Of a stretch of 36,155 bases of DNA, positions 19,515-36,155 are shown in pieces (the stretch's first letter is position 1; every line of letters starts with the position of its first letter). Location of the stretch: the NCBI GenBank assembly GCA_017634555.1, contig JAGBNF010000044.1, positions 1 through 36,155 of the forward strand, in the 5' to 3' direction. The notes beneath the pieces were generated by a model. The model saw only the letters and a list, made by a program, of their open reading frames with translations, was not told the DNA's origin and did no database searches. The DNA comes from Eubacterium sp. GTDB lineage: Bacteria; Bacillota; Clostridia; Lachnospirales; Lachnospiraceae. The position numbers were made by a program, and so were the translations under genes.

Positions 19515-21614
19515 TTAGTTTACACTGAAGAGAAGCTGACCATAGCTTGGGAATGGCCAATCCTTCTGTGATGTAAGCATCTCAGCTTCATCAACATAAG
19601 CTCTGAGCGATTCCATTGTAAGAAGAAGTGTATCTCTTACAAACTCTGATGACTTGAAGATATCAGGAAGATCCTTAAGTGTTGCGATAGCATCCTCAAG
19701 AGCCTTAACTGACTCAAGTATATGATCTGTAAGCTCTGAAAGTCTCTCGATTGTAGAAACTTCATAATTGCACTTAACCTTATCACTTACCTGTCTCATC
19801 AGTGATGTTGTCTGAGCAAGCTTGAAGAGGTATCCCTCGATTGCAGGAAGATAATTCTTGCGAACCATATCAACCATTGTGAGAGCCTCGATATTAACTG
19901 TCTTTACATAGTTCTCAAGCATGATCTCACATCTTGACTGAAGCTCTGCCTCTGTAAATACCTTATGAGCCATAAGCATATCCATGTTCTTCTTATCAAG
20001 GAGACGTGGCATAGCATCAGCTGTTGTCTTAAGGTTAAGAAGGCCTCTCTTCTCTGTAGCTTCAACGATCCAATCCTCACCATATCCGTTTCCGTCGAAG
20101 AGGATTCTCTGATGATCTGTAATAACCTTCTTGATAAGTGTATGAAGATCTTCTTCGAAGTTCTCTGACTTCTCAAGGATATCAGCATACTGACGAAGGC
20201 TTTCTGCAACTGCTGCATTCAGCATGATGTTGCAGCATGCGATACTGTTAGATGAACCGAGTGATCTGAACTCAAACTTATTTCCTGTAAATGCGAACGG
20301 TGATGTTCTGTTACGATCTGTTGTATCTCTTGAGAAGCTTGGAAGTGAATGAACACCCAGCTTCATAACAACCTTCTCTGTTCCCTCATATGGCTCATCA
20401 TTTCTGATAGCATTGAGGATACCTGTAAGCTCATCTCCAAGGAAGATTGAGATGATTGCCGGAGGTGCTTCGTTAGCTCCGAGTCTGTGATCGTTTCCTG
20501 CTGTAGCAACAGAAAGTCTGAGAAGATCCTGATAATCATCGACTGCCTGAATTACTGCGCAGAGGAAAAGCAGGAACTGTGCATTCTCATAAGGTGTCTT
20601 TCCAGGTGAAAGAAGATTGATTCCTGTATCTGTTCCGATTGACCAGTTGTTATGCTTTCCTGATCCGTTAACACCTGCGAATGGCTTCTCATGAAGGAGA
20701 CACTCCATACCATGTCTTGCAGCAACCTTCTTCATGATCTCCATAGTAAGCTGATTTGAATCTGTTGCAACGTTTGTTGTTGAGTAAATAGGAGCAAGCT
20801 CATGCTGTGCAGGTGCAACTTCGTTATGCTCTGTCTTAGCAAGGATTCCCAGCTTCCAAAGCTCCTGATTAAGGTCTTCCATGTACTCTGTTACTCTTGG
20901 CTTGATAACTCCGAAGTAATGGTCATCCATTTCCTGTCCCTTAGGAGGCATAGCTCCGAAAAGTGTTCTTCCTGTATACTTAAGGTCAGGTCTCTTATTG
21001 AAAACTTCCTTATCTACCAGGAAGTACTCCTGCTCAGGACCAACGCTTGTTCTAACATACTTGCAGTCTGTTCCGAAAAGCTTGAGAATTCTCTTTGCCT
21101 GCTTGTTGATAGCCTGCATAGATCTGAGAAGCGGTGTCTTCTTATCAAGAGCTTCTCCTGAATATGAACAGAACGCTGTAGGAATACAAAGTGTATGATC
21201 TTTAATGAATGCATAAGATGTAGGATCCCATGCTGTATATCCTCTTGCCTCAAATGTAGCTCTGAGTCCGCCTGAAGGGAATGATGATGCATCAGGCTCA
21301 CCCTTGATAAGCTCCTTACCGGAGAACTCCATCAGAACTCCTCCGTCCGGTGAAGGTGATATAAAGCTGTCATGCTTCTCAGCTGTAACTCCTGTAAGTG
21401 GCTGGAACCAATGTGTAAAATGTGTGGCTCCGTTTTCGATTGCCCAGCTCTTCATTTCCTCTGCAACTGCATCGGCAACATGCTCATCAAGTCTTGTATT
21501 CTCATCGATAGTCTTCTTAAGTGATGCATATACATCATCCGAAAGTCTTGCTCTCATTACTCTGTCATCAAAAACGAGTGATCCAAACATCTCAGGTACA
21601 TTTGTTTTTTCCAT
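19515..21614 (-). CDS. glnN: Glutamine synthetase type III (GSIII)
   Basis: A 699-residue GSIII, the large form found in Bacteroidetes, cyanobacteria and clostridia; it makes glutamine from glutamate, ammonia and ATP. Landmarks are [40 protein letters not shown] (substrate-binding His/Asn loop), [20 protein letters not shown] and [20 protein letters not shown], all typical of GSIII. Length and C-terminus ([10 protein letters not shown]) are normal. AGGAGG nine bases before 21614 fixes the start; the frame is open 20 codons further upstream in AT-rich leader. Transcription probably begins near 21905 and must pass an intrinsic terminator with a competing hairpin, then a 250-base structured leader. 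A second GSIII is partly visible at the right edge. Confidence 0.96.
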
Positions 21615-21672
21615 TTTGTGGTTCCTCCTCATTATTAAATAATAATAAAAATAATTATTTTCTGTTTTCCAC

Positions 21673-21834
21673 ATCGTGAAGAATCCTTTCGCTTCGCTCA
21701 GTATTCTTCACGATGATGCGATCTCGCCAAAGTCACATATCTGCCTTCGGCAGATATGTATGAGATATAGCACATTGTTCTTGAACGCAAGCGTTCGAAC
21801 ATATGCTATATCTCATGCATATGCTTCGCATATG
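21673..21834 (-). ncRNA. Array of four strong hairpins in the glnN leader
   Basis: Four perfect or near-perfect stems lie in series between the leader terminator and glnN: 21673-21714 (12 bp, 18-base loop), 21735-21759 (11 bp, 3-base loop), 21760-21816 (13 bp outer stem around an inner GAACGC/GCGTTC stem), and 21818-21834 (7 bp, CATATGC/GCATATG). Loops are short and three contain TTC/GAA. No known riboswitch is recognised. It may be a structured 5' leader or a cluster of palindromic repeats inserted here. Confidence 0.55.
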
Positions 21835-21857: not shown

Positions 21858-21894
21858 AAAAAGGCGCCTTAGAGCTAAGCTCTAAGACGCCTTT
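21858..21894 (-). terminator. Leader terminator (attenuator) of glnN
   Basis: On the minus strand AAAGGCGTCTTAGAGC pairs with GCTCTAAGGCGCCTTT over about 16 bp (one wobble) and ends in a T-run. It lies only about 10-50 bases downstream of the predicted transcription start and about 250 bases upstream of glnN, so it must be read through for glnN expression. Confidence 0.8.
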
Positions 21895-21899
21895 GTCTT
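21884..21899 (-). promoter_or_regulatory. ANTAR-type hexaloop hairpin overlapping the glnN terminator
   Basis: AAGAC-AAAGGC-GTCTT forms a 5-bp stem with hexaloop AAAGGC (A at 1, G at 4). It uses the 5' strand of the terminator, so its formation prevents termination. The same layout occurs upstream of amt and pyrG. Confidence 0.6.
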
Positions 21900-21911
21900 C
21901 TTCGGTTATTT

Positions 21912-21940
21912 ACTTTACTACGATAAACCAGAAAAGTCAA
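21912..21940 (-). promoter_or_regulatory. Promoter of glnN
   Basis: On the minus strand TTGACT (21935-21940), 17 bases, TAAAGT (21912-21917). It sits about 50 bases after the stop of the ANTAR gene and places the transcript start near 21905, just before the hexaloop hairpin. Confidence 0.65.
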
Positions 21941-21989
21941 CCCTGTTTTTTAATTTTTTCGAGCAATTTTTTATTGTCGTCGGAAGCCG

Positions 21990-22571
21990 TTAATCATCCA
22001 CGATTTCTTCGGCCACCTGTCGTTTGGTAAGTCCCTTATTCATAGCCTCACGGATTATATATTCATGAGCATCTGCCTCGCTCATTCCCTTCTTCTCCAC
22101 AAGCACTATCTTTGCACGACTTACAAGCTTCAGTTCTTCCATCTTCTCATTAAGTATCCTGAGCTTTTTATGGACTGCTCTCAGCCTGTCATTCATTGCT
22201 ATGACAAGTCTTATCATCCTTTCAAGTTCACCCAGCTTGATAGGCTTCTGAAGCGTCATTACTCCATGTTCTATCAGCCTGTCATTAACACTCTGGAACA
22301 CCTCTGTCGGAACCGCAAGAATAACTCCTGAGCTGTGTTTCTCCACAACGTCCATAACAAACTCCGTTCCGAGACCATCCTGCAGCGGAGCATTTACTAT
22401 TACAAGATCATACTCTCTGACAAGAAGCTCACGCCTTGCGGATGAAGCACTCTTTCTGATTTCAATGATATCAAAGCGTCTGTCAGGAAGAACCTTCTTC
22501 ACGGTAATATTGAATTGTTCGGATGACGACACTATAAGCACCGAATACCTGTTATCATTTCTTTCTTTCAT
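21990..22571 (-). CDS. ANTAR-domain RNA-binding regulator with pseudo-receiver domain
   Basis: A 193-residue two-domain protein. Residues about 8-125 have a receiver fold (YSVLIVSSSEQF, EYDLVIVNAPLQDGLG, LQKPIKLGELERMI), but the phospho-acceptor Asp is Asn60 and the N-terminal acidic pair is missing, so it should not be phosphorylated. Residues about 139-190 are an ANTAR domain: AKIVLVEKKGMSEADAHEYI followed by IREAMNKGLTKRQVAEEIVD. ANTAR proteins (AmiR, NasR, EutV) bind hexaloop RNA hairpins and prevent transcription termination. The gene is 21 bases after the GS-I-like gene and directly upstream of the glnN attenuator. It is the obvious candidate to act on the hairpins at glnN, amt and pyrG; how it senses nitrogen is unknown. 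Confidence 0.9.
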   Translation of the reverse strand: MKERNDNRYSVLIVSSSEQFNITVKKVLPDRRFDIIEIRKSASSARRELLVREYDLVIVNAPLQDGLGTEFVMDVVEKHSSGVILAVPTEVFQSVNDRLIEHGVMTLQKPIKLGELERMIRLVIAMNDRLRAVHKKLRILNEKMEELKLVSRAKIVLVEKKGMSEADAHEYIIREAMNKGLTKRQVAEEIVDD

Positions 22572-22592
22572 ACCTGCCTCGATCTGAAATCA

Positions 22593-23765
22593 TTAGGAAA
22601 TGTACTTATCGATAATAGCCTTAGGCAGGAATCCACTAATAAATTCACTGTCCTCAGCCATCTTCTTTGCTTCCTTTCTTGACTTAGGAAGAAGAATGCT
22701 CTCACCGTCTACCTCTTCAGGCAGAGTAAGCTTGTTCTTTATTCCGTAAAGTCCGGCATGTATAAGAAGTGCATAGGCAAGATAAGGATTGCTGAGTGCG
22801 TCAGGCGATCTCAGCTCTACTCTTGTGCTTCCCTTAATATCATCTATATGTATCAGCTCGGATCCACCGATTCTTGACCAGTTAACCTTATCAGGTGCAG
22901 TTCCCTGTCCGAATCTGTTATAGGATGCATCCGTCGGATTAAGGAATATTGTTATATCCTTGATTTTTGACAGAATACCTGCTGCGGCATACTTCGCAAC
23001 GTCATTGCCATCCTCATCCTGTGCGAAAACATTGATATGATAACCGTTGCCCGGCTTATCTGAAAGCGGCATCGGTGAAAAATCGGCATAAAGCCCGTTT
23101 CTGTCAGCCACTGTTGCTACAACCATCTTAAATGTGATCATCTGGTCCGCAGCCTTAAGCGGCTTTCCGTAATGGAAGTCTATCTCATTCTGTCCGGGTC
23201 CTCTCTCATGATGCGAACGCTCCGGAGTAAGGCCCATTTCCTCTATAGTGAGGCAGATCTCACGACGGATATTCTCTCCTCTGTCCAGTGGAGCAATATC
23301 CATATAGCCTGCTTCATCATAAGGAATCTTTGTCGGATTTGCTTCATCATCTGTCTTGAACAGATAGAATTCCATTTCCGATCCAAACTTGAATTCTATT
23401 CCTGCAGCCTTTGCTTCTTCTACTGCATTTCTGAGTATATTTCTTGTGTCAGCCTCAAAAGGAGTTCCGTCTGATGTGCAGACATCGCAGAACATTCTGA
23501 GAACTCGACCCGAATCAGGTCTCCAAGGAAGTACAGAAAGAGTAGTCGGATCCGGCTTCAGATACAGATTTGCCTCTTCACTTCCCTCAAAACCTCTTAT
23601 CGCCTTGGCATTGATAGCGATACCATCCTTAAATGCCTTATGTACCTCACTCGGCATTATAGATATATTCTTCTGGACACCGAAGGCATCTCTGAATGCA
23701 AGTCGTATAAACTTGGCATCCTCTTCTTCGATATATTCCATTACTTCAGCTTCTGTAAAATTCAT
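22593..23765 (-). CDS. glnA: Glutamine synthetase type I-like protein, divergent active site
   Basis: A 390-residue GS-I family protein, shorter than the usual ~440-470. Conserved ligands are present: Glu130 and Glu132 (GSEMEFYLF), Glu187 and Glu194 (HERGPGQNEIDF), His243 (GNGYHIN), Glu317 and Arg319 (TRVELRSPDALSNPYLA). But the segment that in Escherichia coli GlnA carries the Glu327 flap and Arg339/Arg344 (GYEAP, NRSA, IRIP) reads YNRFGQGTAPDKVNWSRIGG and then SELIHIDDI: the flap Glu aligns with Thr289 and both Arg are lost by my alignment. It may be a slow or altered ligase or a regulatory paralogue. It lies 69 bases after carB and directly before the ANTAR gene. AAAGGA upstream supports ATG 23765. 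Confidence 0.85.
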   Translation of the reverse strand: MNFTEAEVMEYIEEEDAKFIRLAFRDAFGVQKNISIMPSEVHKAFKDGIAINAKAIRGFEGSEEANLYLKPDPTTLSVLPWRPDSGRVLRMFCDVCTSDGTPFEADTRNILRNAVEEAKAAGIEFKFGSEMEFYLFKTDDEANPTKIPYDEAGYMDIAPLDRGENIRREICLTIEEMGLTPERSHHERGPGQNEIDFHYGKPLKAADQMITFKMVVATVADRNGLYADFSPMPLSDKPGNGYHINVFAQDEDGNDVAKYAAAGILSKIKDITIFLNPTDASYNRFGQGTAPDKVNWSRIGGSELIHIDDIKGSTRVELRSPDALSNPYLAYALLIHAGLYGIKNKLTLPEEVDGESILLPKSRKEAKKMAEDSEFISGFLPKAIIDKYIS

Positions 23766-23834
23766 ATGAATTCCTTTCTCTCATATCAATACCTTTAACC
23801 GATATTATCATTTCACCGCTATACGCGGCGATCA

Positions 23835-26800
23835 CTAAATTGTTGAAATTCTTGGAGTGATATCCTCAAGAACATCAAGAAGGATCTTTACCGTATCAAG
23901 AGATGTAAATATAGTTACACCGTTCATGATAGCGCAGCGTCTGATCTCAATTCCGTCTCCATAATGTACTCCTGAAAGGATAGCACGTGTATTGATGATA
24001 TAGCTTACGTAACCTGCCTCGATAGATCTGAGAACCTCATCACTACCGTCACTGAGCTTTCCTCTGATTCTGGTTCTGATACCATGCTCCTTGAGGAATT
24101 CACCCGTACCGACAGTTGCCTCGATATTGAAACCGAGCTCATAGAATCTTCTAACCAGTGGAAGTGCTTCTTCCTTATCCTCATCGGCAAGAGTAACCAT
24201 TACGGTTCCGTACTCCTTCATCTTGATACCTGAAGCCTGAAGAGCCTTATAGAATGCTCTCTTAAGACTTCTGTCATATCCGATGGCCTCACCTGTAGAC
24301 TTCATCTCAGGTGAAAGATATGCATCCATACCATTCAGCTTTGCGAAGGAGAAGGCAGGTGCTTTAACATACCACTTCTTAGCCTTCTTTAAAATGTTCT
24401 CCTTAGCCTCTTCATCAGCTGCAGCGTCCGCCTCAGCCTGAGCCTGAATTATCTTCAGTCCGCCTTCCTCTGCGATTCCGAGATATCCCTGCTCCTCAAG
24501 GCTGTGTCCGAGCATAACCTTTGTAGCAATATCAACCAGCGGATAGCCTGTTGACTTTGAAAGGAAAGGTACACTTCTGGATGCACGAGGGTTAACCTCG
24601 ATGATATATACATTATCCTGCTTATCAACGATAAACTGGATATTGAAAAGTCCTACAATACCGATTCCGAGACCGAGCTTTGTTGTGTAATCTGTGATTG
24701 TCTCCTTAACCTTTTCAGAAATGGAATAAGGAGGATAAACGCTTGTACTGTCTCCCGAATGTACACCGGTTCTTTCAACAAGCTCCATGATACCGGGAAG
24801 GAATACATCCTTTCCGTCACAGATAGCATCAACCTCAACCTCTTTACCTACGATATACTTATCAACAAGAACAGGTCTGTCCTCATCAACTTCAACCGCA
24901 CTCTTGAGGTAATGTCTGAGCATTGTCTCGTTTGCAACGATCTCCATAGCACGTCCACCAAGAACGAAGCTTGGACGAACAAGTACCGGATAACCGATCT
25001 TCTCTGCAGCAGCCACACCACTCTCGATATCTGTAACCGCAACCCCCTTCGGATGAGGAATGTCAAGACTCTCGATAACACCCTCGAAGGCATCTCTGTC
25101 CTCAGCTCTGAAGATAGCATCACAGTCTGTTCCGATAATCTTTACACCTCTGTCCCTGAGCGGCTCGGCAAGGTTGACAGCTGTCTGTCCACCGAGTGAA
25201 GTGATAACACCCTCAGGCTTTTCAAGGTCGATAATATTCATGATATCCTCTGCGGTAAGCGGCTCGAAATACAGCTTATCTGCAGTTGTATAATCCGTAG
25301 AAACAGTCTCCGGATTGTTATTTATAACTATAGCCTCATAGCCCATTTCATGAATGGTCCTTACGGCATGTACTGTTGAGTAATCGAACTCAACACCTTG
25401 TCCGATTCTGATAGGACCTGAACCGAGAACTATGATCTTCTTGTTGTCTGAAACTATAGACTCATTTTCCTCTTCATATGTTGAATAGAAGTAAGGAACG
25501 TAGCTTTCAAACTCGCTGGCACATGTATCGATCATCTTATATACCGGACGGATGTCGTACTCTTTTCTGAGCTTCCATACATCATCCTCTGTAAGTCCTG
25601 TCAGCTCTGCGATATAAGAATCTGAGAATCCCATCTTCTTCGCAGAGTAAAGGATTTCCTTATCGATCGTCTTTCCTGCCAGCTTCTCAAGATGTCTCTC
25701 AAACTCAACGATATTTCTGATCTTATCCAGGAAGAACATATCGATTCCCGTTCTGTTCATGATGACCTGAAGATCTACACCCAGCCAGATAAGCTGTGAA
25801 AGCGCATAGATTCTGTCATCCGTACCATCCTCGATATACTTGAGCAACTTCTCAACTGCCTCAGCTCTGTTTTCAGGTTCAGGCTTATCGGACAAGCTCT
25901 TAACATCGAACTTCTCAAGATGGATATGGTTTCTTCCGTCTTCGAGTGATCTGATTGCCTTGAGAAGGCTTTCCTCAAATGTGCGGCCTACGGACATTGT
26001 CTCTCCTGTTGCCTTCATCTGAGTAGAGAGCACATTTGATGCAAGCGTAAACTTATCAAATGGGAATCTAGGCATCTTTGTTACTATATAGTCAAGTGCA
26101 GGCTCGAAGCATGCAGGTGTATTAGCAAGCTGGATCTCATCAAGATTCATGCCTACGGCAATCTTCGCAGATACTCTTGCGATAGGATAACCGCTGGCCT
26201 TTGAAGCAAGTGCCGATGATCTTGATACACGAGGATTAACCTCGATAACGTAGTAATTAAATGACTGTGGATCAAGTGCAAACTGGCAGTTACATCCACC
26301 CTTAACTCCGAGAGCTCTGATGATCTTGAGAGCACTGTCACGGAGCATATGATACTCTTTATTTGTAAGTGTCTGGCTAGGAGCTACTACTATGGAATCT
26401 CCTGTATGGATTCCTACAGGGTCCAGATTCTCCATGTTGCAGACTACGAGTGCCGTATCGTTGGCATCTCTCATTACTTCGTACTCAATTTCCTTATAAC
26501 CCTTGATACTCTTCTCAACGAGTACCTGATGAACAGGTGAAAGCGCAAGAGCATTCTTCATCATATCTGCCATTTCCTCAGGATTATCGGCAAAGCCGCC
26601 GCCTGTACCACCCAGTGTGAATGCAGGTCTGAGGATAACAGGATATCCGATTCTTTCTGCAGCCTGAAGTCCTTCCTCTACAGTGTATGTAATCTCTGAA
26701 GGAACAACCGGTTCACCCAGCTTTTCACAAAGCTCCTTAAACTCTTCTCTATCCTCTGCGCATCTGATACTTGCAGCATCTGTTCCGAGAAGCTCTATCT

Positions 26801-27134
26801 CGCATTCATCAAGAACGCCCTTATCATTAAGCTGCATAGCAAGGTTAAGACCTGTCTGTCCACCGATTCCCGGTACTATCGCATCCGGTCTTTCATAACG
26901 GCATATACGAGCCATATACTCAAGAGTAAGCGGCTCCATATAAACCTTGTCTGCAACCATTGTATCTGTCATTATCGTAGCAGGATTTGAATTGGCAAGT
27001 ATAACCTCATAGCCCTCTTCCTTAAGTGCAAGGCAGGCCTGTGTGCCGGCATAATCAAACTCTGCAGCCTGTCCTATAACGATAGGACCGGATCCTATAA
27101 CTAAAATCTTATGTAGATCTTTTCTCTTTGGCAT
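23835..27134 (-). CDS. carB: Carbamoyl-phosphate synthase large subunit
   Basis: A 1099-residue synthetase subunit that makes carbamoyl phosphate from bicarbonate, ATP and ammonia channelled from CarA, for pyrimidines and arginine. The two homologous halves are clear: [20 protein letters not shown] near the N-terminus and [20 protein letters not shown] in the middle, each followed by an ATP-grasp domain ([38 protein letters not shown]). The C-terminal MGS-like domain binds effectors. Length and order are normal. GAGGGAT precedes the ATG. It is 43 bases after carA and forms an operon with it. Confidence 0.97.
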
Positions 27135-27177
27135 TTTCTATCCCTCTTCTATCTGGAACTGTTCTAACAATATCCGC

Positions 27178-28272
27178 TTATTTATTCGCTCTGAAAAGAC
27201 TCATCTTTTCAATGAATCTGTCGAAAAGATATGTGCTGTCCTGTGGTCCCGGTGCACTCTCAGGATGATACTGTACTGAAAATGTGTATCCATCCTCCGA
27301 TGCAAGACCTTCAACAGTTTTATCCAGGAGATTGATATGTGACACCTTAAGTCCTGTGCCTTCTACTGTTGAATCATCAACCGCATAGCTGTGGTTCTGG
27401 CTGGTAATCTCAATCTTTCCCGTAGCAATATCCTTAACAGGATGATTGCCTCCTCTGTGACCGAATTTAAGCTTATATGTTTTAGCTCCGTGTGAAAGCG
27501 CGATAAGCTGATGTCCGAGGCAAATTCCGAACATCGGGAGCTTTCCCTTCAGAGCCTTAAGAGTCTCAATAACTTCAGGAACATCCTCCGGATCTCCCGG
27601 GCCGTTAGATATAAAAAGTCCGTCCGGCTTCATCTTAAGGATCTCATCAGCTGATGTTCTGTAAGGAACAACAGTTACATTACAACCATGAGAATTAAGC
27701 TCGCGGACGATATTCATCTTCATGCCGCAGTCAATAGCGACAACGTTATACTTTGGATTGGAAGTTCTTGAATACCACTTCTTCTTGCAGCTGCATCTTG
27801 AAACAGCGTCATGACGAAGCTCAGTCTCCTTAAGAATCTTAAGTCCTTCCTCCAGACTTGTATCTATTCCCGTAACAAGAACCTTACGTGATCCGTGATC
27901 TCTGATACTTCTTACAAGCTTTCTTGTATCAATACCATAAATACCCGGAACATCTGCTTCTTCGAGAAGCTCTGAAAGGGTTCTGGTAAAACGGAAATTA
28001 GACGGATTATCATTAACTTCGCGCACGATAAGTGCACCGAGGTTAAGCATTTTACTTTCAAAGTCCTCATCGGTTATACCGTAATTACCGATGAGAGGAT
28101 AAGACATCACAATGGCCTGATCTGTATAGGAAGGATCTGAAATGATCTCCTGATAACCTGCCATGGATGTGTTGAATACGATTTCGGCAACCACATCTCT
28201 GTCTGCACCAAAGCCGTATCCCAGATACTCACTGCCGTCTTCTAATATGATTTTCTTATTAAATGCAGTCAT
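27178..28272 (-). CDS. carA: Carbamoyl-phosphate synthase small subunit (glutamine amidotransferase)
   Basis: A 364-residue subunit that releases ammonia from glutamine and passes it to CarB. The N-terminal CPSase_sm domain (EDGSEYLGYGFGADRDVVAE, FNTSMAGYQEIISDPSY) is followed by a class I glutamine amidotransferase domain with nucleophile Cys in MFGICLGHQLIAL and the catalytic His-Glu in VQYHPESAPGP. All catalytic residues are present. It directly precedes carB and follows pyrG by 102 bases that contain a long hairpin and a possible promoter. Confidence 0.97.
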   Translation of the reverse strand: MTAFNKKIILEDGSEYLGYGFGADRDVVAEIVFNTSMAGYQEIISDPSYTDQAIVMSYPLIGNYGITDEDFESKMLNLGALIVREVNDNPSNFRFTRTLSELLEEADVPGIYGIDTRKLVRSIRDHGSRKVLVTGIDTSLEEGLKILKETELRHDAVSRCSCKKKWYSRTSNPKYNVVAIDCGMKMNIVRELNSHGCNVTVVPYRTSADEILKMKPDGLFISNGPGDPEDVPEVIETLKALKGKLPMFGICLGHQLIALSHGAKTYKLKFGHRGGNHPVKDIATGKIEITSQNHSYAVDDSTVEGTGLKVSHINLLDKTVEGLASEDGYTFSVQYHPESAPGPQDSTYLFDRFIEKMSLFRANK

Positions 28273-28322
28273 ATTCTTCTTCCTCAGTTATCTAATAATA
28301 TATTTAAACATCTCCAGAATGC

Positions 28323-28368
28323 ATAATAGCAGAATCATCACAAAAAACAAGTCTTCATGATGATTCTG
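28323..28368 (-). promoter_or_regulatory. carA leader: 11-bp hairpin overlapping a possible promoter
   Basis: CAGAATCATCA (28330-28340) and TGATGATTCTG (28358-28368) form a perfect 11-bp stem with a 17-base loop that contains six T on the minus strand. TTGTTT (28345-28350), 16 bases, TATTAT (28323-28328) could be a promoter on the same strand. No T-run follows the stem, so it is not a standard terminator. Confidence 0.45.
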
Positions 28369-28374
28369 TAATAA

Positions 28375-30000
28375 TTATTTTCTGTCGACATCAAGTGCAC
28401 TCTTAACGAACTCCTTGAAAATCGGATGTGGACGGTTAGGTCTTGACTTGAACTCAGGATGATACTGAACTCCGATATAGAACGGATGATCTGTAAGTTC
28501 TACGGTCTCAACAAGATGTCCGTCAGGAGACTGACCTGCTATTACAAGTCCTGCTTCCGTAAGTACATCACGATATTCATTATTGAATTCATATCTATGG
28601 CGATGACGCTCATGAATAACTTCATTTGCCTCATCCGAACCTGCAGGGAAATAACATCTCTCAAGCAATGTTCCAGGTGCAACAACACAAGGATAGCTTC
28701 CGAGTCTGAGTGTTCCACCCTTGTTGACGCTGTCAGACTGACCCGGCATGAAATCTATAACCTTTACATCTGTAGCATTATGGAACTCTCCTGAACATGC
28801 GTCCTTAAGTCCTGCCACATTTCTTGCAAACTCTATAACAGCTATCTGCATACCGAGACATATTCCGAAGTACGGAATCTTATGTTCTCTCGAGTACTTA
28901 GCTGCAAGTACCATTCCGTCGATACCTCTGTCTCCGAAGCCTCCGGGAACTATTATACCATCAACGTGCTTAAGTTTCTCCTCATAATTTTGTTCATTTA
29001 ATTCTTCTGAATCGATCCAGTCGATCGTTACATGAGCATTAAGCGCAAAACCCGAATGATTAAGGGCTTCCGCAACTGAAAGGTATGCATCATGAAGCTG
29101 AACGTACTTACCGACAAGTCCGATAGTTACGTCCTTCTCACGTGCATCTATATCACTTACCATCTTCTTCCACTCAGCAAGATCCGGCTCCTTAGGATCA
29201 AGACCAAGCTCACGGCATACAACCTTTGAAAGGCCTGCATCCTCAAGCATAAGAGGCGCTGCATAAAGGCTTGGCAAAGTTCTGTTTTCGATAACGCAGT
29301 CTTCCTTAACATTACAGAACATGGATATCTTCTTAAATATAGATGGCTCAAGCGGCTCATCACATCTTAGCACGATAATGTCAGGGCGTACTCCCATTCC
29401 CTGAAGCTCCTTTACGGAATGCTGTGTCGGCTTTGACTTATGCTCATCAGAACCGTGAAGGAACGGAACAAGTGTTACATGTATAAAGAGGCTGTCTTCC
29501 TTCGGAATCTCAAGTGAAATCTGTCTTACTGCCTCTATGAACGGCTGTGACTCAATATCGCCGATAGTACCACCGATCTCTGTGATAACTATATCGGCAT
29601 CAGTCTCGTTGCCTACTCTGTAAACGAATTCCTTTATCTCATTTGTAATATGAGGAATTACCTGAACAGTTGAACCGAGGTACTTACCCTCGCGTTCCTT
29701 ATTCAGCACATTCCAGTATACCTTACCTGAAGTAAGATTTGAATACTTATTAAGATTTTCATCGATGAATCTTTCATAATGTCCAAGGTCGAGATCTGTC
29801 TCAGCTCCGTCTTCTGTTACATATACCTCTCCATGCTGATACGGACTCATTGTTCCCGGATCAACATTTATATATGGATCGAGCTTCTGTGCAGCCACCT
29901 TATAACCTCTGGCCTTGAGCAGTCTTCCAAGTGAAGCCGCCGTAATTCCTTTACCAAGACCTGAAACAACACCGCCTGTTACGAAAATGTACTTTGCCAT
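28375..30000 (-). CDS. pyrG: CTP synthase
   Basis: A 541-residue enzyme converting UTP to CTP using ATP and glutamine. The synthetase domain begins [20 protein letters not shown] with [20 protein letters not shown]; the glutamine amidotransferase domain has nucleophile Cys in [14 protein letters not shown] and the His-Glu pair in [11 protein letters not shown]. Length is typical. AGGAGG before the ATG. The gene is preceded by its own promoter, an intrinsic terminator and the same hexaloop hairpin seen before glnN and amt. The pyrimidine-rich terminator strand and GGGCTC start used by the CTP-sensing Bacillus pyrG leader are not seen. Confidence 0.97.
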
Positions 30001-30032
30001 CGATATCCTCCTGATTTTTTCACACTACAAAT

Positions 30033-30069
30033 AAAAAAAGGCACTTCGAGCTATGTAACCCGAAGCGCC
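30033..30069 (-). terminator. Leader terminator (attenuator) of pyrG
   Basis: On the minus strand GGCGCTTCGGG pairs with CTCGAAGTGCC (two G-U wobbles) around an 8-base loop and is followed by TTTTTTT. It lies about 33 bases before the pyrG start and within the pyrG transcript. Confidence 0.8.
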
Positions 30070-30077
30070 ATTGCTTC
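30062..30077 (-). promoter_or_regulatory. ANTAR-type hexaloop hairpin overlapping the pyrG terminator
   Basis: GAAGC-AATGGC-GCTTC forms a 5-bp stem with hexaloop AATGGC (A at 1, G at 4). The loop and 3' arm are part of the terminator's 5' strand, so the two structures exclude each other. Confidence 0.6.
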
Positions 30078-30111
30078 AAAACCAATATCATTTATTTTTT
30101 TAACAATTATC

Positions 30112-30139
30112 AGTATATTACTTTATTTTCAAAAGTCAA
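30112..30139 (-). promoter_or_regulatory. Promoter of pyrG
   Basis: On the minus strand TTGACT (30134-30139), 16 bases, TATACT (30112-30117). It would start transcription near 30105, about 28 bases before the hexaloop hairpin. Confidence 0.7.
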
Positions 30140-30181
30140 GGAGCTTTTAACTATTTTTTACAAAATTTATTATAATCCTCT

Positions 30182-31075
30182 CTACAACTGCTCCTGTGCC
30201 GGAAGAGTCAGTGTTATTACAAAACTCGACTCATCCTGTGATGCACTGATATCTCCGCCCATCTTCTCTGCAAATCCCTTACATATATATAAGCCGAGGC
30301 CTGCACCGCCTGTGGAACGTGCCGCATCACCCTTTACAAATCTGTCGAATATCCTGTCCGTATCGATTTTCGAACCGGGATCCGTAATGATCCTGAGTTT
30401 TACATTTTCCTCCTCTTCCGGATCGATAACAAAATCCAGTTTCTTTTCCGAATACTTAACCGCATTTGATATAAGATTCTGAATGATCCTGACAAGCTTT
30501 TTCTTATCAGCAAAAACATATATATTCTGCTCCGACTGTTCGAAGGATGGCTCAAGACCTTTTCTGTCTATCTCCGGACTTTCAGCAAGTATCTCTTCAC
30601 AGATGATCTCACAAAGATTTACTCTCACAGCTTCAATATCCACCTGACCGGATTCTATGAGTGAAAGCTCAAAGAAATCATTTACCAGCTTATTCAGATA
30701 ACGGGCTCTCTCAAGCGCAATATCTATATTCGCTGTCATCTCTGCTCTGTCTTCCGTTTTTGATGCTATCTGAAGATATCCTATTATTGAGGTCAACGGA
30801 GTCCTCATATCATGGGATATCATGGATATAGACTCTCTCATTTTATTCTCCTCTTCCTTACCCTCGGCCTTAATCTCCAATATATATTCATAGAGATGAT
30901 TAACCTCGGTGATCATATTCTGCAGATCACTGTCCACAAAATCAACATTCATCTGCCTTTTGTCCGGGTTATTCTTCATTTCCCCGATTACCCTTTTCAT
31001 CTGGCTCTTCATCAAGATCAGCTTGATAAACAAAAAGAGGACCAGTGCTATAAGTATAATGATAACATATAACAT
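30182..31075 (-). CDS. Sensor histidine kinase
   Basis: A 297-residue kinase with one N-terminal membrane helix (MLYVIIILIALVLFLFIKLI) and almost no extracellular domain, so it probably senses through its transporter partner or inside the membrane. The HisKA box has the phospho-acceptor His in MISHDMRTPLTSIIGY; the HATPase domain shows the N box NLISNAVKYS and G box GGAGLGLYICKGFAEKMGG. ATG 31075 is set by AGGAGG seven bases upstream. It follows the ABC permease by 25 bases. Such short kinases beside a BcrA-type ABC transporter often respond to antimicrobial peptides; that role is an inference here. Confidence 0.9.
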   Translation of the reverse strand: MLYVIIILIALVLFLFIKLILMKSQMKRVIGEMKNNPDKRQMNVDFVDSDLQNMITEVNHLYEYILEIKAEGKEEENKMRESISMISHDMRTPLTSIIGYLQIASKTEDRAEMTANIDIALERARYLNKLVNDFFELSLIESGQVDIEAVRVNLCEIICEEILAESPEIDRKGLEPSFEQSEQNIYVFADKKKLVRIIQNLISNAVKYSEKKLDFVIDPEEEENVKLRIITDPGSKIDTDRIFDRFVKGDAARSTGGAGLGLYICKGFAEKMGGDISASQDESSFVITLTLPAQEQL

Positions 31076-31100
31076 AACAGGTCCTCCTAATTTCAATTAA

Positions 31101-31826
31101 TTAATTTGCCACGTCACGCTTATTAAAGAATATGATTGTGGCTGTCACAAACACTACGATAGCTATTATCGCACATATTGCACATGGTATCAAATCAGAA
31201 TTTTCTGAACTCTTTGCAAAGCAGAAGAAAGAATGCTCGTAGATAAGATTAGCTCTAAATACATTTCTGAGTACGTTTCCACCAACGGCAGCTACAGATA
31301 CGCAGGCAAAAAGTGCAGTATACACATTTCCGCAGATATATGTGATCAGCATATAAAATGCATTCATTGCGATGAGCTGAAGGCATACAACACCAATCCA
31401 TGCAATATCCTTCTTATTAAAGCCATCAAAGGAATAACCAAATCCGGATCCGTACTGAATAACAGTTTCTACTACAAGTCCAAGATGGAAAATGATTGTT
31501 AAAACGCTTGTAGCGATAAGCTGGCTGATAACAGTCATCCATCTTTTATTACCTGTAACGATCACTCTGTGAAGAGTTCTGTTCGTAAAGTCAATTCCCA
31601 CATACCATGCAATAAGCATTCCTATCAGGAAAGAAAATGAAGCGTCTGAAACGCCGTCCATGAATCCGTCATACATACAGCCATTCGGATGAGCATCAAC
31701 ATATGACTGCTTAATTCCTCCAACGATCAGATTATACACAACCAAAAATAACAGAAATCCCATACTCACATAAAACGGAGTAAATCTTTTCATTTTATAT
31801 CTTTCTATTTTAAACAGATTAAGCAT
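31101..31826 (-). CDS. ABC-2 type transporter permease
   Basis: A 241-residue membrane protein with about six hydrophobic segments (FYVSMGFLLFLVVYNLIVG; FLIGMLIAWYVGIDF; LIATSVLTIIFHLGLVVETV; WIGVVCLQLIAMNAFYMLIT; TALFACVSVAAVGG; AICAIIAIVVFVTATIIFF). The typical FTNRTLHRVIVTGNKRW loop after the second helix marks the ABC-2/BcrB-like permeases. It overlaps the ATPase gene by 8 bases, so the two are translationally coupled and form one exporter. Substrate unknown; peptide antibiotic efflux is common for this type. Confidence 0.88.
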   Translation of the reverse strand: MLNLFKIERYKMKRFTPFYVSMGFLLFLVVYNLIVGGIKQSYVDAHPNGCMYDGFMDGVSDASFSFLIGMLIAWYVGIDFTNRTLHRVIVTGNKRWMTVISQLIATSVLTIIFHLGLVVETVIQYGSGFGYSFDGFNKKDIAWIGVVCLQLIAMNAFYMLITYICGNVYTALFACVSVAAVGGNVLRNVFRANLIYEHSFFCFAKSSENSDLIPCAICAIIAIVVFVTATIIFFNKRDVAN

Positions 31827-32742
31827 TTGCTTCCCCTCCTGTAATTGTCATAAAGTAATCTTCCAGTGACTGCTCTTTCTCAGAGAGCTCAGAAATAACT
31901 ATTCCTGCTTCCATAAGATGCTTTGAAAGCTCAGCCTTCATTTCCGGCTTTCCAAAGATTTTTACTGTGTCATCCGACTCAACCTTATAGGATGTACCCG
32001 GAAAATACTTTTCAAGGATCGTCACTGTCTCAGGAATGTTGCTGTCCTTCACCATAATATACTGACTGCATTTTTCCTCAAGCTTTTCATGTGTATCAGT
32101 CTCAATTATTCTTCCCTTATGAATAAAGATGAAATCCGTTGCCAGAAGATAAAGTTCACTTAAGATATGGCTTGAAATGAAGATCGTACATTCTTTTTCT
32201 TCATTTATCTTCTTCAGCATATTTCTGAGAGCAACTATATTCTTAGGATCAAGTCCGTTTATCGGCTCATCTAAGATAAGGAACTGTGGATTTCCTATCA
32301 TAGCCATTGCTATTCCGAGTCTCTGCTTCATTCCCATAGAAAGCTTCTTTGCTGCTTTCTTCTGCTGATCTTCAAGACCCACAAGCTCGATAACTCTGTC
32401 TGTTGCTGATTTATCAGGATTGCCCACCAGCATTCTCTGAATCTCCACATTCTGTCTTACCGAGTACTTCGGATAAAGATATGGGCCCTCGATCATTGTT
32501 CCCATTGCCTTACGTTTATTTTCTATAGCCTTCGGATCATCCTCTCCCATCAGTGAGAAGTCACCGGATGTCGGAAAAATAAGTCCTGCTATTATCTTCA
32601 TAAATGTACTCTTGCCGGCTCCGTTTTCTCCAATAAAACCGTATATATGATTTTTCTTCAAAGTAACACTCACATTATCAAGTGCAAATGTGTCCTTATA
32701 CTTTTTTGAAAGATTTCTTGTTTCAAGTATTACATCACTCAT
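31819..32742 (-). CDS. ABC transporter ATP-binding protein (BcrA-type)
   Basis: A 307-residue ATPase. Walker A is GENGAGKST, the signature is LSMGMKQRLGIAMAM, Walker B is FLILDEPINGLDP, and the H-loop His lies in TIFISSHILSEL. The extra C-terminal domain of about 90 residues is usual for the BcrA/lantibiotic-immunity class. AAGGAAC precedes the ATG. It heads a three-gene set with the permease and kinase. A TATAAT lies upstream near 32780 but a good -35 was not found. Confidence 0.93.
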   Translation of the reverse strand: MSDVILETRNLSKKYKDTFALDNVSVTLKKNHIYGFIGENGAGKSTFMKIIAGLIFPTSGDFSLMGEDDPKAIENKRKAMGTMIEGPYLYPKYSVRQNVEIQRMLVGNPDKSATDRVIELVGLEDQQKKAAKKLSMGMKQRLGIAMAMIGNPQFLILDEPINGLDPKNIVALRNMLKKINEEKECTIFISSHILSELYLLATDFIFIHKGRIIETDTHEKLEEKCSQYIMVKDSNIPETVTILEKYFPGTSYKVESDDTVKIFGKPEMKAELSKHLMEAGIVISELSEKEQSLEDYFMTITGGEANA

Positions 32743-32814
32743 TTTTTTTAGTTCCTTTCGTTTTGATGATGTGAGTATATTATATGACTCTAAGAAAAAT
32801 GTTCACCAATCTTA

Positions 32815-32857
32815 AAGAAAAACTAAAGAATACCGCCCTTACTTTGAAAGGCGGTAT
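32815..32857 (-). terminator. Terminator of the response regulator gene
   Basis: On the minus strand ATACCGCC (32850-32857) pairs with GGCGGTAT (32830-32837), followed by TCTTTAGTTTTTC. The stem includes the stop codon region of the regulator gene, so that gene and the ABC genes are probably separate transcripts. Confidence 0.7.
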
Positions 32858-33504
32858 CCCATTCCGTATACAGTATCTATATATGGTTCATCTGTTACTT
32901 TAGCAATTTTCTTACGGAGATTACTCATATGTACATTCATTGTATTATCTTCGCTTAAGTATTCTTCACCTGTTATGCTTTCAAAAAGATTACGCTTGGA
33001 AAAAACCTTATTCGGATTATTCAGCATAAGCTCCAGGATACTATACTCCATAGTAGTACAGGTCAGTTCATCCTCACCTATATATACTCTTTTAGACTCT
33101 TTATCGAGCTTCATATCTTTATATTTAAGTTCGGCTGCCGGCTTCACATCTCCGGTACGTCTGAGTACTGCTTCTATTCTAAGTATTACCTCATCCACAT
33201 CAAAAGGCTTACTTATATAATCATCTGTTCCCAGCTTCAGAAGCTCAATCCTGTTTACTACTTCATTCTTTGCCGAAAGAACTATGACCGGTGTATTCTT
33301 TTTCTTTCTCAGTTCACCTAGAACTTCTTCTCCTGTTTTCTTCGGCATCATCAGATCCAGCAGTATAAGCTCATAATCCTTTTCCAAAGCCTTTGCAAGA
33401 CCTGTTTCTCCATCGAGTGCACTGTCGGTTTCATATCCGTTATCCGAAAGCACCTTGCAGAGAAGGTTATTTATCATAGCATCATCTTCAATAACAAGTA
33501 TCAC
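32839..33504 (-). CDS. OmpR/PhoB-family response regulator
   Basis: A 221-residue regulator. The receiver domain has an acidic pair in VIEDD, the phospho-acceptor Asp in LILLDLMMPKKTGEEV and Lys in DDYISKPFDVDEV; the C-terminal winged helix ends SNLRKKIAKVTDEPYIDTVY then GMGYRL. I chose the GTG start at 33502-33504 (VILVIEDD) because GGGGGA lies seven bases upstream; ATG 33537 would add eleven residues and has no good ribosome site. It is probably the partner of the kinase at 30182, separated from it by the ABC genes. Confidence 0.88.
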   Translation of the reverse strand: MILVIEDDAMINNLLCKVLSDNGYETDSALDGETGLAKALEKDYELILLDLMMPKKTGEEVLGELRKKKNTPVIVLSAKNEVVNRIELLKLGTDDYISKPFDVDEVILRIEAVLRRTGDVKPAAELKYKDMKLDKESKRVYIGEDELTCTTMEYSILELMLNNPNKVFSKRNLFESITGEEYLSEDNTMNVHMSNLRKKIAKVTDEPYIDTVYGMGYRLSK

Positions 33505-33612
33505 TTTAATTTCCCCCAATACTTTTTCTCCTGCCATTTTACCGTAACCATCTGCACTCTTCAACCTTAATATTTCCTGATGACTCTGCATGTTATCATA
33601 AATATAAGAAAT

Positions 33613-33673
33613 GCCCACCGGATCAATCGTTCATGTGTGTCATACGCCACACAAACAACCGACTTCGGTGGGC
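33613..33673 (-). terminator. Long hairpin after amt, probable terminator
   Basis: GCCCACCG and CGGTGGGC are perfect 8-bp arms enclosing about 45 bases that also pair (TGTGTG with CACACA). On the minus strand it follows the amt stop by 24 bases and precedes ATTTCTTATATTTATG, a weak T-rich tail. It could instead be part of the response-regulator leader. Confidence 0.5.
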
Positions 33674-33696
33674 AAATAAGAAGATGGGTAATTAAA

Positions 33697-35448
33697 TTAC
33701 TCTACATCCTGGAGAGCTGCATAATTCTCTTCACCTGTTCTTATCTTAACTACCTTACTTACAGGATATACGAAGATCTTTCCATCACCGATCTTACCTG
33801 TGTAAAGTGTCTTCTTTGCTGTTTCGATTACGCTGTCAACAGGGATTCCGCTGACAACTACTTCAAGCTTAATCTTAGGAAGGAGTGTCATATCCATTTC
33901 AACTCCACGGTATTTCTCACCGGTACCCTTCTGAATACCGCATCCACTTACCTGTGTTACTGTAATACCTGTAACACCGAGATTGTTGAGTGCTCTCTTG
34001 ATCTTATCGTATCTTGAAAGCTTTGTAATGATAACTACCTTATTGATACCTGTATCAACTATTCCTGCATTCTTCATATCCTTAGTTGTATCAACTACAG
34101 GAACTGAAGCCTTCTTCTGAGCTTCGCTTGCTGAGTCATAATCAGAAACACCAAGATTTGTATTTTCATTTTCACTCATCATAGCGCTTGACATATCAAC
34201 GATACTGAATCCTGAATAAGCTGATGCAAGACCATGCTCTGTTGAATCAAGACCTTCAATTTCTTCTTCCTCTGATACTCTGAGACCGAAGATTGCCTTA
34301 ATGATTGTGAATACGATGATCATTGTAACTATTGTCCATGCTGCTACTGATGCAAATCCGAGTAACTGAATTCCTAACTGATGGAAACCACCGCCGTAGA
34401 AAAGACCTACAACACTGTCATTTCCAGGAGCTGAAGTTGTTGCAAAAAGTCCTGTTGCAATTGTTCCCCAGATACCGTTCATCATATGTACCGCTACTGC
34501 ACCAACAGGATCGTCGATGTGAAGCTTGAAATCAAGGAGCCATACTCCGAATACTACGAGAAGTCCGGCAACTGCACCGATTATGATTGCACCTGATGCA
34601 TCTGTTACATCACATGGAGCTGTAATAGCTACAAGACCTGCAAGTGAAGCATTGAGACACATTGAAACATCAGGCTTACCATACTTAACCCATGTAAATA
34701 TCATACATACTACTGTTGCTACTGAAGGTGCGATTGTTGTTGTAACGAATACTGATGCAAGCTGATCAACTGATGTACAAGCTGCGCCGTTGAATCCGTA
34801 CCATCCAAACCAGAGGATAAATACACCAAGTGCACCGATTACTATATTATGTCCAGGGAAGGCGTTAACCTTAACAACCTTACCATTTGAATCCTTTTCA
34901 AATTTTCCTATACGAGGACCAACCATCTTTGCTCCGATGAGGGCTGAGATACCGCCAACCATGTGGATTGCACATGAACCTGCGAAATCATGGAAGCCAA
35001 TCTGAGAAAGCCAGCCACCACCCCAAATCCAATGAGCCTCAATTGGATAAATTACAAGTGAAATAATTCCAGAATATACACAGTAGCTAATAAACTTTGT
35101 TCTTTCTGCCATGGCACCACTTACGATTGTTGCTGTTGTAGCGCAGAACACAAGGTTAAATACAAAGTTGCTCCAGTCAAAGTTTGCATAGTCTGTAAAT
35201 ATTCCTAGTGTTGGTCTTCCTACTAATCCAAAGAGACAATCCTCTCCAAACATAAGACCAAATCCTAAAACAATAAACATTACTGTACCAATACAGAAAT
35301 CCATCAGGTTTTTCATAATGATATTTCCTGTATTTTTTGCTCTGGTAAATCCTGCCTCTACCATTGCAAATCCCGCTTGCATCCAAAATACAAGGGCAGC
35401 TCCTATAAGGAACCAGACTCCAAATAACATGCTTGAATAAGCTTCCAT
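33697..35448 (-). CDS. amt: Ammonium transporter fused to a PII signalling domain
   Basis: A 583-residue fusion. Residues 1-390 are an Amt channel with about eleven membrane helices; the conduction-pore twin His are His162 (FHDFAGSCAIHMVGG) and His321 (VGAVAVHMMNGIWG). Residues about 391-467 are a polar Ser/Glu-rich linker. Residues 468-583 are a complete PII (GlnB/GlnK) domain: NKVVIITKLSRYDKIKRAL, GITVTQVSGCGIQKGTGEKY, LLPKIKLEVVV and the ATP-binding TGKIGDGKIFVYPV and KIRTGEE. The T-loop keeps Tyr513 (position 46 of E. coli GlnB) but the uridylylated Tyr51 is Met518. In most bacteria GlnK is separate and blocks AmtB by inserting its T-loop; here it is tethered. Amt-PII fusions have been seen in some bacteria. 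GGAGG before the ATG. Confidence 0.95.
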   Translation of the reverse strand: MEAYSSMLFGVWFLIGAALVFWMQAGFAMVEAGFTRAKNTGNIIMKNLMDFCIGTVMFIVLGFGLMFGEDCLFGLVGRPTLGIFTDYANFDWSNFVFNLVFCATTATIVSGAMAERTKFISYCVYSGIISLVIYPIEAHWIWGGGWLSQIGFHDFAGSCAIHMVGGISALIGAKMVGPRIGKFEKDSNGKVVKVNAFPGHNIVIGALGVFILWFGWYGFNGAACTSVDQLASVFVTTTIAPSVATVVCMIFTWVKYGKPDVSMCLNASLAGLVAITAPCDVTDASGAIIIGAVAGLLVVFGVWLLDFKLHIDDPVGAVAVHMMNGIWGTIATGLFATTSAPGNDSVVGLFYGGGFHQLGIQLLGFASVAAWTIVTMIIVFTIIKAIFGLRVSEEEEIEGLDSTEHGLASAYSGFSIVDMSSAMMSENENTNLGVSDYDSASEAQKKASVPVVDTTKDMKNAGIVDTGINKVVIITKLSRYDKIKRALNNLGVTGITVTQVSGCGIQKGTGEKYRGVEMDMTLLPKIKLEVVVSGIPVDSVIETAKKTLYTGKIGDGKIFVYPVSKVVKIRTGEENYAALQDVE

Positions 35449-35479
35449 AATATTTTCCTCCTTGGGGTTTATTATTATT

Positions 35480-35509
35480 TATATAAAAAGGCGCGCAGTA
35501 TTTTTTCAA
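35480..35509 (-). promoter_or_regulatory. Possible amt promoter inside the terminator
   Basis: On the minus strand TTGAAA (35504-35509), 18 bases, TATATA (35480-35485). If active, it would start amt after the terminator and bypass the attenuator. The overlap with the stem makes this uncertain. Confidence 0.35.
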
Positions 35510-35524
35510 ATACTGCACGCCTTT
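35485..35524 (-). terminator. Terminator between the right-edge GSIII gene and amt
   Basis: On the minus strand AAAGGCGTGCAGTATTT pairs with AAATACTGCGCGCCTTT over 17 bp with one wobble, followed by T residues. It lies about 36 bases before the amt start, so amt transcription from the upstream gene depends on read-through. Confidence 0.85.
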
Positions 35525-35528
35525 GTGC
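35515..35528 (-). promoter_or_regulatory. ANTAR-type hexaloop hairpin overlapping the amt terminator
   Basis: GCAC-AAAGGC-GTGC forms a 4-bp stem with hexaloop AAAGGC (A at 1, G at 4), using the 5' strand of the terminator. Same layout and same loop as at glnN. Confidence 0.55.
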
Positions 35529-35544
35529 TACCTTCTAATTACGC

Positions 35545-36155
35545 TTATTTTACGCTATAAAGAATTTCTCCGTATGTTGGGTATGGCCAGATATCACTTG
35601 GTACTACTGTTTCAAGCTCATCAACCACCTCTCTAAGCTCATTCATATCTGCAAAAATTACATCATGATGGAACTTAGCCAAATCATATGTCTCAGTTAA
35701 TTCTTTTGCCTTATCAATGTCTGCTTCAAGCTTTTCAAGTCTTTCATCCATTGATGTTGTTAACTTAGCTGCCTGCTCCAATCTCTTCTTTTCCACTGAA
35801 GAATCAACTGGAAGTCCTGTAGCTGCCTTTGCGTTAAGAGTTTCTGCAAGTGTAAACTGATAATCACTAGCAGCTGCCATAATGTCTTTCTTAACCATAG
35901 CATCCATTGTAAGAGCTTCGATATCAATTACCTTATAGTAATTCTCAAGCTGGATGTCATATCGGCTATAAAGCTCCTGCTCCGTAAATACGTTATGCTT
36001 TGTAAATACATCAATTGCTTTCTTATCTACGAATGCTGGAAGGGCATCTACTGTAGACTTGAGGTTCTTAAGTCCTCTTCTCTCTGCTTCCTTTACCCAC
36101 TCATCAGAATATCCGTTACCATTGAAGATGATTCTCTTGTGGGCTGTAAGCTCTC
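35545..36155 (-). CDS. glnN: Glutamine synthetase type III, C-terminal part (5' end outside the window)
   Basis: An open frame enters from the right edge and ends at TAA 35545-35547; about 202 residues are visible. It matches the C-terminal part of the complete GSIII at 19515: AHKRIIFNGNGYSDEWVKEA (there [20 protein letters not shown]), ALPAFVDKKAIDVFTKHNVF, ELYSRYDIQLENYYKVIDIE and the final DIWPYPTYGEILYSVK. It is a second, clearly diverged GSIII copy. It lies upstream of amt in the same direction with a terminator in the 96-base gap, so the pair is a GSIII-Amt/PII unit whose downstream half may be controlled by read-through. Confidence 0.93.
   Translation of the reverse strand, partial: ELTAHKRIIFNGNGYSDEWVKEAERRGLKNLKSTVDALPAFVDKKAIDVFTKHNVFTEQELYSRYDIQLENYYKVIDIEALTMDAMVKKDIMAAASDYQFTLAETLNAKAATGLPVDSSVEKKRLEQAAKLTTSMDERLEKLEADIDKAKELTETYDLAKFHHDVIFADMNELREVVDELETVVPSDIWPYPTYGEILYSVK

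Follow-up and report, generated by a model that had tools for sequence, protein, structure and literature searches.

A probable single-hexaloop attenuator in leaders of nitrogen and glutamine genes of Clostridia and its proposed ANTAR antiterminator

The leaders and their genes

Our analysis concerns a 36,155-nucleotide (nt) stretch of DNA of Eubacterium sp. (Clostridia, Lachnospiraceae; assembly GCA_017634555.1, contig JAGBNF010000044.1), hereafter the window, and in particular the leaders of its glnN, pyrG and amt genes, in each of which a small hairpin with a six-nucleotide loop (hexaloop) overlaps an intrinsic terminator. The three leaders are probably transcription attenuators of a single nitrogen/glutamine regulon, worked by an ANTAR protein that acts on one hexaloop. 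The features considered here are as follows.

19515..21614, minus strand: glnN, type III glutamine synthetase, target (profile search; start codon inferred)
21860..21894, minus strand: glnN intrinsic terminator, with a strand common to the hairpin (terminator scan, folding)
21884..21899, minus strand: glnN antiterminator hairpin, loop AAAGGC (hairpin scan)
21912..21940, minus strand: glnN sigma-70-like promoter TTGACT-17-TAAAGT (-10 end to loop A1, 17 nt)
21990..22571, minus strand: ANTAR protein with aspartate-less receiver domain, proposed antiterminator (profile search, alignment)
22593..23765, minus strand: GlnA-like protein of 390 amino acids, catalytic residues lost, proposed sensor (profile search, alignment)
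23835-27134, minus strand: carB (named from translation)
27178-28272, minus strand: carA (named from translation)
28375..30000, minus strand: pyrG, CTP synthase, target (profile search)
30040..30069, minus strand: pyrG intrinsic terminator (terminator scan, folding)
30059..30080, minus strand: pyrG antiterminator hairpin, loop AATGGC (hairpin scan)
30112..30139, minus strand: pyrG sigma-70-like promoter TTGACT-16-TATACT (-10 end to loop A1, 39 nt)
33697..35448, minus strand: amt fused to a P-II domain, target (profile search)
35487..35524, minus strand: amt intrinsic terminator (terminator scan, folding)
35515..35528, minus strand: amt antiterminator hairpin, loop AAAGGC, between a second glnN and amt (hairpin scan)

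A preliminary description of the window had placed a hairpin in each of the three leaders, overlapping the 5' strand of a terminator so that the two structures exclude each other, and both points hold. On the minus strand, the glnN leader carries AAGAC-AAAGGC-GTCTT at 21899-21884, the pyrG leader TTTGAAGC-AATGGC-GCTTCGGG at 30080-30059 counting G-U pairs (with a core of 5 base pairs, bp, at 30077-30062) and the amt leader GCAC-AAAGGC-GTGC at 35528-35515. The stems are thus 4-8 bp long and the loop common to all is AANGGC. Terminators called by the scanner overlap all three hairpins (21894-21860, 30069-30040 and 35524-35487, respectively), and the leaders fold with z-scores of -4.1, -3.9 and -5.7 in the same order. 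Since the 3' strand of the hairpin is the 5' strand of the terminator in every leader, the two structures are mutually exclusive.

The signature of ANTAR targets had been taken to be A at loop position 1 and G at position 4 (A1/G4), which agrees with the published targets in the available part of PMC3369931. By itself this pattern is weak evidence, because A1/G4 hexaloops with a stem of at least 4 bp are frequent in the window (29 on the plus and 78 on the minus strand, 107 in total). The narrower AANGGC hexaloop with a stem of at least 4 bp occurs four times in the whole window, namely in the three leaders and at 29540 on the plus strand, within the pyrG frame. Five other terminators of the window (at 19452, 8834, 12153, 3355 and 32815), said to lack such a hairpin, indeed have no A1/G4 hexaloop of at least 4 bp on either strand. 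Rfam 15 gave 0 matches at the gathering score in the window.

A Pfam search found Ammonium_transp and a C-terminal P-II domain together in the amt product. The frame ending just before the amt attenuator, at 35545, resembles the end of a second glnN by sequence, and the part of it that was scanned had no Pfam match. The stretch from the glnN attenuator to the glnN start contains long inverted repeats (21672-21822, with arms 21754-21775/21801-21822 and 21672-21687/21700-21715); they may represent a small mobile palindromic element or more leader structure.

Conservation, promoter spacing and occurrence across Clostridia

Hexaloop stems of at least 4 bp were found in 71 of 84 terminators with AANGRC at their foot and in 6 of 128 other terminators; for loci not fetched with the covariance model the figures are 26/32 and 4/93 (16/93 with the best of seven loop offsets). 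In an alignment of 72 copies, fitted to the model and with some copies antisense to others, compensatory changes affect four of the five stem pairs (94 cells versus 20.5 in shuffles), and shifting the stem pairings lowers the paired fraction from 95% to 32-53%. The strand common to both structures also covaries with the 3' arm of the terminator. The closing C-G pair is invariant in 72/72 copies, and loop position 3 is free: 69 copies from a scan that demanded A1 and G4 have A at position 2 in 68 cases, G at position 5 in 65 and C at position 6 in 67. Positions 2 and 6 are conserved though the scan did not require them, so that both loop conservation and stem compensation, on which the preliminary description had staked its claim, are found. 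A further view is provided by the best 80 named loci of a search with the GlnA-like protein (1.24 megabases; many Lachnospiraceae, also Christensenellaceae, Oscillospiraceae and others). Among their terminator-overlapping hexaloops of at least 4 bp, A1/G4 occurs 44 times versus 25 for all other combinations, and 41 of these 44 start with AA, spread over 29 of the 80 loci.

The two-hexaloop structure carried by published ANTAR targets (PMC3369931, as far as available) is not mentioned in the preliminary description, and it is not found here. Within the stretch scanned, the glnN, pyrG and amt leaders have a single A1/G4 hexaloop of at least 3 bp each, and a second one (P1) is absent. Among 141 distinct copies, P1-like hairpins stand directly upstream of 14, and control windows placed farther upstream hold 9, 14 and 9. 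A sigma-70-like promoter lies upstream of 117 of the 141 copies and its -10 element ends 8-19 nt before the loop in 96 (13-17 nt in 88); in 20 mononucleotide shuffles of the upstream sequence, promoters at 8-19 nt averaged 7.9, with a maximum of 13. Transcription usually starts 6-8 nt past the -10 element, and therefore in these 96 copies the hairpin should, by the predicted promoter, constitute the first ~20 nt of the RNA. Within the window, glnN fits this spacing (17 nt), pyrG has a longer one (39 nt) and the amt attenuator is intercistronic. Attenuation of pyrG of the B. subtilis type involves reiterative G addition, with the transcript-initial G run pairing with the terminator; no G run lies near the pyrG start here, which is placed by promoter prediction only. 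The amt leader of one relative (L181, minus strand near 1542) has a true two-hexaloop layout, GATGC-AACGAG-GCATC standing 2 nt before the AAAGGC hairpin, and because its P1 is clear, both single- and two-hexaloop kinds exist in the class.

The element was then followed through related, mostly draft, genomes. Covariance model R1 was seeded with the three window leaders and four leaders of relatives (L009 twice, L019 and L020). In the window's own genome it matches six copies: the three seeds, an attenuator before gltB and a tandem pair before a second amt. Model R2 finds the same six at E <=0.02. The tandem pair (C13:46737-46864) consists of two complete attenuators with loops AAAGGC and AATGGC (L035:1435 and L035:1509), and tandem copies are present also in L186 and L199. 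At E <=0.1, R1 matches 20 of the 22 genomes whose ANTAR orthologue is close and 46 of 78 in which it is more distant, the latter under stricter filters and with 21 such genomes left out; of 28 genomes without ANTAR by BLAST it matches 7. The Pfam ANTAR model recovers an ANTAR in 12 of those 28, once below the cut-off; R1 matches fall in 5 of these 12 versus 2 of the remaining 16, among which ~1.6 are expected at that E-value. Several model matches had no attenuator in the follow-up scan (e.g. L045, L047, L048, L057, L074, L078, L093, L103, L104 and L107).

Of 293 class genomes, 100 have an R2 match at E <=0.02 and 156 a match to the ANTAR model. The element is found in 92/156 genomes with ANTAR versus 8/137 without, the comparison for which the preliminary description had called (odds ratio 23; p 6e-24, a value that overstates independence, since the 293 genomes are related). 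In a check independent of the model, the leader of the best glnN orthologue was inspected in 30 chosen genomes; 15 of these leaders have an A1/G4 hexaloop that overlaps a terminator (0/4 without ANTAR). Two further glnN leaders (L169 and L171) have the same hairpin and terminator with the loop GAAGGC, i.e. G at position 1. The co-occurrence of hairpin, terminator and ANTAR gene is beyond chance.

Downstream genes were assigned by a rough sequence rule for 147 distinct copies (the 141-copy set and 12 more loci): glnN 59, amt 14, a GltB-like amidotransferase-domain protein 14, GlnA 9, pyrG 9, asnB 8, gdhA 8, gltB 7, dapL 2, purF 1, carA 1 and other 15, which are not frequencies, as the set was partly fetched with glnN, pyrG and GlnA. 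Profile searches confirm one example each of purF, carA, pyrG, gdhA, dapL, asnB, gltB and the amidotransferase-domain protein, and they identify one of the 'other' products as a GatD-like glutamine amidotransferase. The regulon of glutamine synthesis, ammonium uptake and CTP synthesis that had been suggested from the window is thus recovered in its kinds of genes by the model search, yet it is wider (gltB, asnB, gdhA, glnA, purF, carA, dapL), and its CTP link is real but uncommon: leaders of pyrG orthologues carry an A1/G4 hexaloop overlapping a terminator in 3/24 cases, a fourth being doubtful. Divergent promoter pairs occur in L052, L068, L177 and L192, with an attenuator on gdhA or glnN and another on the GltB-like amidotransferase-domain gene. 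At L285:1323 the element precedes a gene for a CobB/CobQ-like, GatD-like glutamine amidotransferase, and no ANTAR was found in that genome.

The ANTAR protein and its GlnA-like neighbour

An ANTAR gene had been noticed in the same cluster, and its product (21990-22571) matches PF03861 at 5.6e-15, behind a receiver domain scoring 24.2 bits (below the cut-off of 30.2). No other ANTAR was found in the window's genome (72% complete). Across 28 ANTAR proteins, the positions corresponding to EutV Lys149, Glu160, Tyr164 and Met172 are invariant, with His in place of Tyr164, as in AmiR. EutV itself contacts G4 through Lys149, Glu160 and Tyr164 and needs Met172 to bind, according to the accessible part of PMC8934654. 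A phosphorylatable Asp is absent from all 28 proteins in an alignment read by eye; receiver domains without it are enriched with ANTAR (PMC4395418, seen in part).

The ANTAR gene lies 21 nt downstream of the gene for the GlnA-like protein, which in turn is downstream of carB, carA and pyrG on the same strand. The five genes possibly make up one transcription unit, and from this gene order control at the pyrG leader may extend to the ANTAR gene. A strict rule places ANTAR behind the GlnA-like gene in 72 of 82 cases; in the other ten, six ANTAR genes overlap the GlnA-like gene, one GlnA is at a contig end and three have no ANTAR there.

The GlnA-like neighbour has glutamine synthetase domains and most metal-site residues. 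Its residues are numbered here by the Salmonella scheme; those compared include D50 of the ammonia site, E327 of the flap, R339 and R344. In the nearest 25 named loci (L205-L229), D50, E327 and R344 are lost in 25/25 and R339 in 24/25. The same loci keep E212, E220, H269, R321 and R359 in all 25, E357 in 24 and E131 in 21 (lost in 4). Glu is found at position 327 in 15, and Asp in 5, of 122 GlnA-like sequences, mostly from the window's clade; in an alignment of the close GlnA set the flap Glu is missing in 17 of 23 and kept in 6. The window protein scores 286 bits against the NCBIfam GlnA model, the cut-off of which is 429. Among more distant ANTAR-linked GlnA proteins, some look degenerate (L025, L115-L118) and others canonical.

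Proposed mechanism, rival readings and known systems

For ANTAR binding, read-through, the sign of control and the signal, we infer the following from studied ANTAR systems together with the comparative evidence. Polymerase would make the small hexaloop hairpin first. Unaided, the far more stable terminator would win and transcription would end before the gene. By analogy with EutV, the ANTAR protein would bind the loop, reading G4 through the conserved Lys, Glu, His and Met, and so stabilize the hairpin, allowing polymerase to read through. One hexaloop, usually within the first ~20 nt of the RNA, would be enough. Because the receiver domain has no phosphorylatable Asp, ANTAR activity is probably controlled by a partner protein and not by phosphorylation, as in AmiC-AmiR, and the neighbouring GlnA-like protein is the candidate partner.

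Several observations weigh against this mechanism. Besides the relatedness of the genomes, 64 of the 156 ANTAR genomes have no R2 match at E <=0.02; the looser control with the best of seven loop offsets raises the other terminators with a stem of at least 4 bp to 24/128; EutV Arg142, Arg175 and Arg177 are not conserved in the window protein; and EutV antitermination in vivo needs both hexaloops (available part of PMC8934654). In one rival reading a P1 was missed, and the leaders are ordinary dual-hexaloop targets with nothing structurally new. A clear P1 in L181, weaker P1-like matches in seven other leaders and the tandem attenuators of L035, L186 and L199 are in keeping with this, but in 96 of the 141 copies the -10 of the predicted promoter ends so near the loop (8-19 nt) that P1 would fall outside the RNA, P1-like hairpins are as frequent as in the control windows and the three leaders of the window have none, making a missed P1 quite unlikely. 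Real-looking attenuators in six genomes in which no ANTAR was found are also a difficulty. They include five (G182, G186, G250, G395 and G411) of the eight class genomes with a match and no ANTAR, the attenuator scan having found none in the other three (G364, G381 and G409), and G130, which is 81% complete and has one such attenuator. These genomes would fit a reading in which another RNA-binding factor, or the RNA alone, responds through the hairpin and ANTAR merely co-occurs within a shared nitrogen gene set. Draft gaps are a likely explanation, in keeping with the ANTAR found in other members of the genus for four of the five and of the family for G186. A hairpin of 14-22 nt is, moreover, too small for a typical riboswitch. 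With the element-ANTAR association across the 293 genomes, the retained G4-reading residues and a loop A1 and G4 matching the published signature (PMC3369931, in part), a different reader appears unlikely. Finally, the loop could be a functionless by-product of terminators that start with AAAGGCG and end with CGCCTTTT, given that in the leaders of glnN and amt AAAGGC pairs with the 3' end of the terminator. The hairpin's 5' strand, which the terminator does not need, nevertheless covaries with the common strand, and shifted pairings are paired far less often. Given this covariation and control terminators without the hexaloop, the by-product was rejected as highly improbable.

Because the GlnA-like protein has lost ammonia-site and flap residues, has kept most metal-site residues and adjoins ANTAR, and because a type III synthetase is present in 30/30 chosen genomes, we propose on these sequence grounds that it is the nitrogen sensor of the ANTAR protein. 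In its full form, which we put forward tentatively and rate somewhat short of an even chance, a degenerate GlnA, in a clade that uses type III enzymes, would signal the status of glutamine or of ATP/glutamate through its hold on, or release of, the aspartate-less ANTAR, thereby opening single-hexaloop attenuators at the RNA 5' end across the glutamine economy, up to the CTP, carbamoyl-phosphate and purine amidotransferases. It is also conceivable, if on balance doubtful, that the protein is an active ligase for another amine and is linked to ANTAR by co-regulation only. Glutamine-synthetase-like proteins with gamma-glutamylpolyamine or ethanolamide synthetase activity have been described (PMC9397018, in part), the metal-site residues are mostly retained, D50, R339 and R344 persist in many relatives beyond the inner clade, and there is a weak match between the window protein and the gamma-glutamylputrescine synthetase model (160 bits, cut-off 650). 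A ligase is, however, harder to reconcile with the loss of R344 and R339 throughout almost all loci of the window's clade, the short length of the window protein (390 amino acids) and its place beside ANTAR in nearly all loci seen.

Comparison with known systems shows what is shared and what differs. As in the dual-hexaloop targets (EutV/eut, NasR/nasF and AmiR/ami; available part of PMC3369931), an A1/G4 hexaloop hairpin overlaps an intrinsic terminator, and ammonium transporter, glutamine synthase and glutamate synthase genes are already listed there as ANTAR targets, whereas CTP synthase, carA, asnB and purF are not named in that part. Here one hexaloop, usually at the predicted RNA 5' end, takes the place of two, and the loop consensus is AANGGC with an invariant closing C-G. 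In the open PMC literature we found no paper pairing ANTAR with CTP synthase, and neither single-hexaloop leaders nor a glutamine-synthetase-like sensor turned up in titles and abstract starts; papers on ANTAR and Lachnospiraceae seemed unrelated by title. The EutV study (PMC8934654, in part) predicts that a single hexaloop can serve as a binding site, and its G4-reading residues match those of the window ANTAR. It differs in requiring both hexaloops in vivo and phosphorylation-driven dimers, whereas one hexaloop and no phospho-Asp are found here. Although both hexaloops are required for EutV in vivo, its dimer cannot hold the two of one RNA, and the minimal target was redefined as a single hexaloop (same source). 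Natural leaders with one hexaloop near the RNA 5' end offer a minimal system for the question of how ANTAR proteins use their targets. They also suggest that ammonium assimilation is widely controlled in this way among gut and rumen Clostridia, with an extension into nucleotide synthesis and with a glutamine-synthetase-like pseudoenzyme as candidate sensor.

Partner-controlled ANTAR proteins are represented by AmiC-AmiR and NasS-NasT, and here, too, an aspartate-less receiver-ANTAR protein, as in AmiR, adjoins a candidate sensor. The difference is that this candidate is glutamine-synthetase-like and the complex putative. In glnA-nitR of Clostridium saccharobutylicum an ANTAR gene stands behind glnA in nitrogen control, with an active GlnA, and we know of no single-hexaloop regulon there. 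The system described here therefore departs from published ANTAR systems in two respects: its targets carry one hexaloop, and its ANTAR gene lies behind a glutamine-synthetase-like gene with lost ammonia-site and flap residues.

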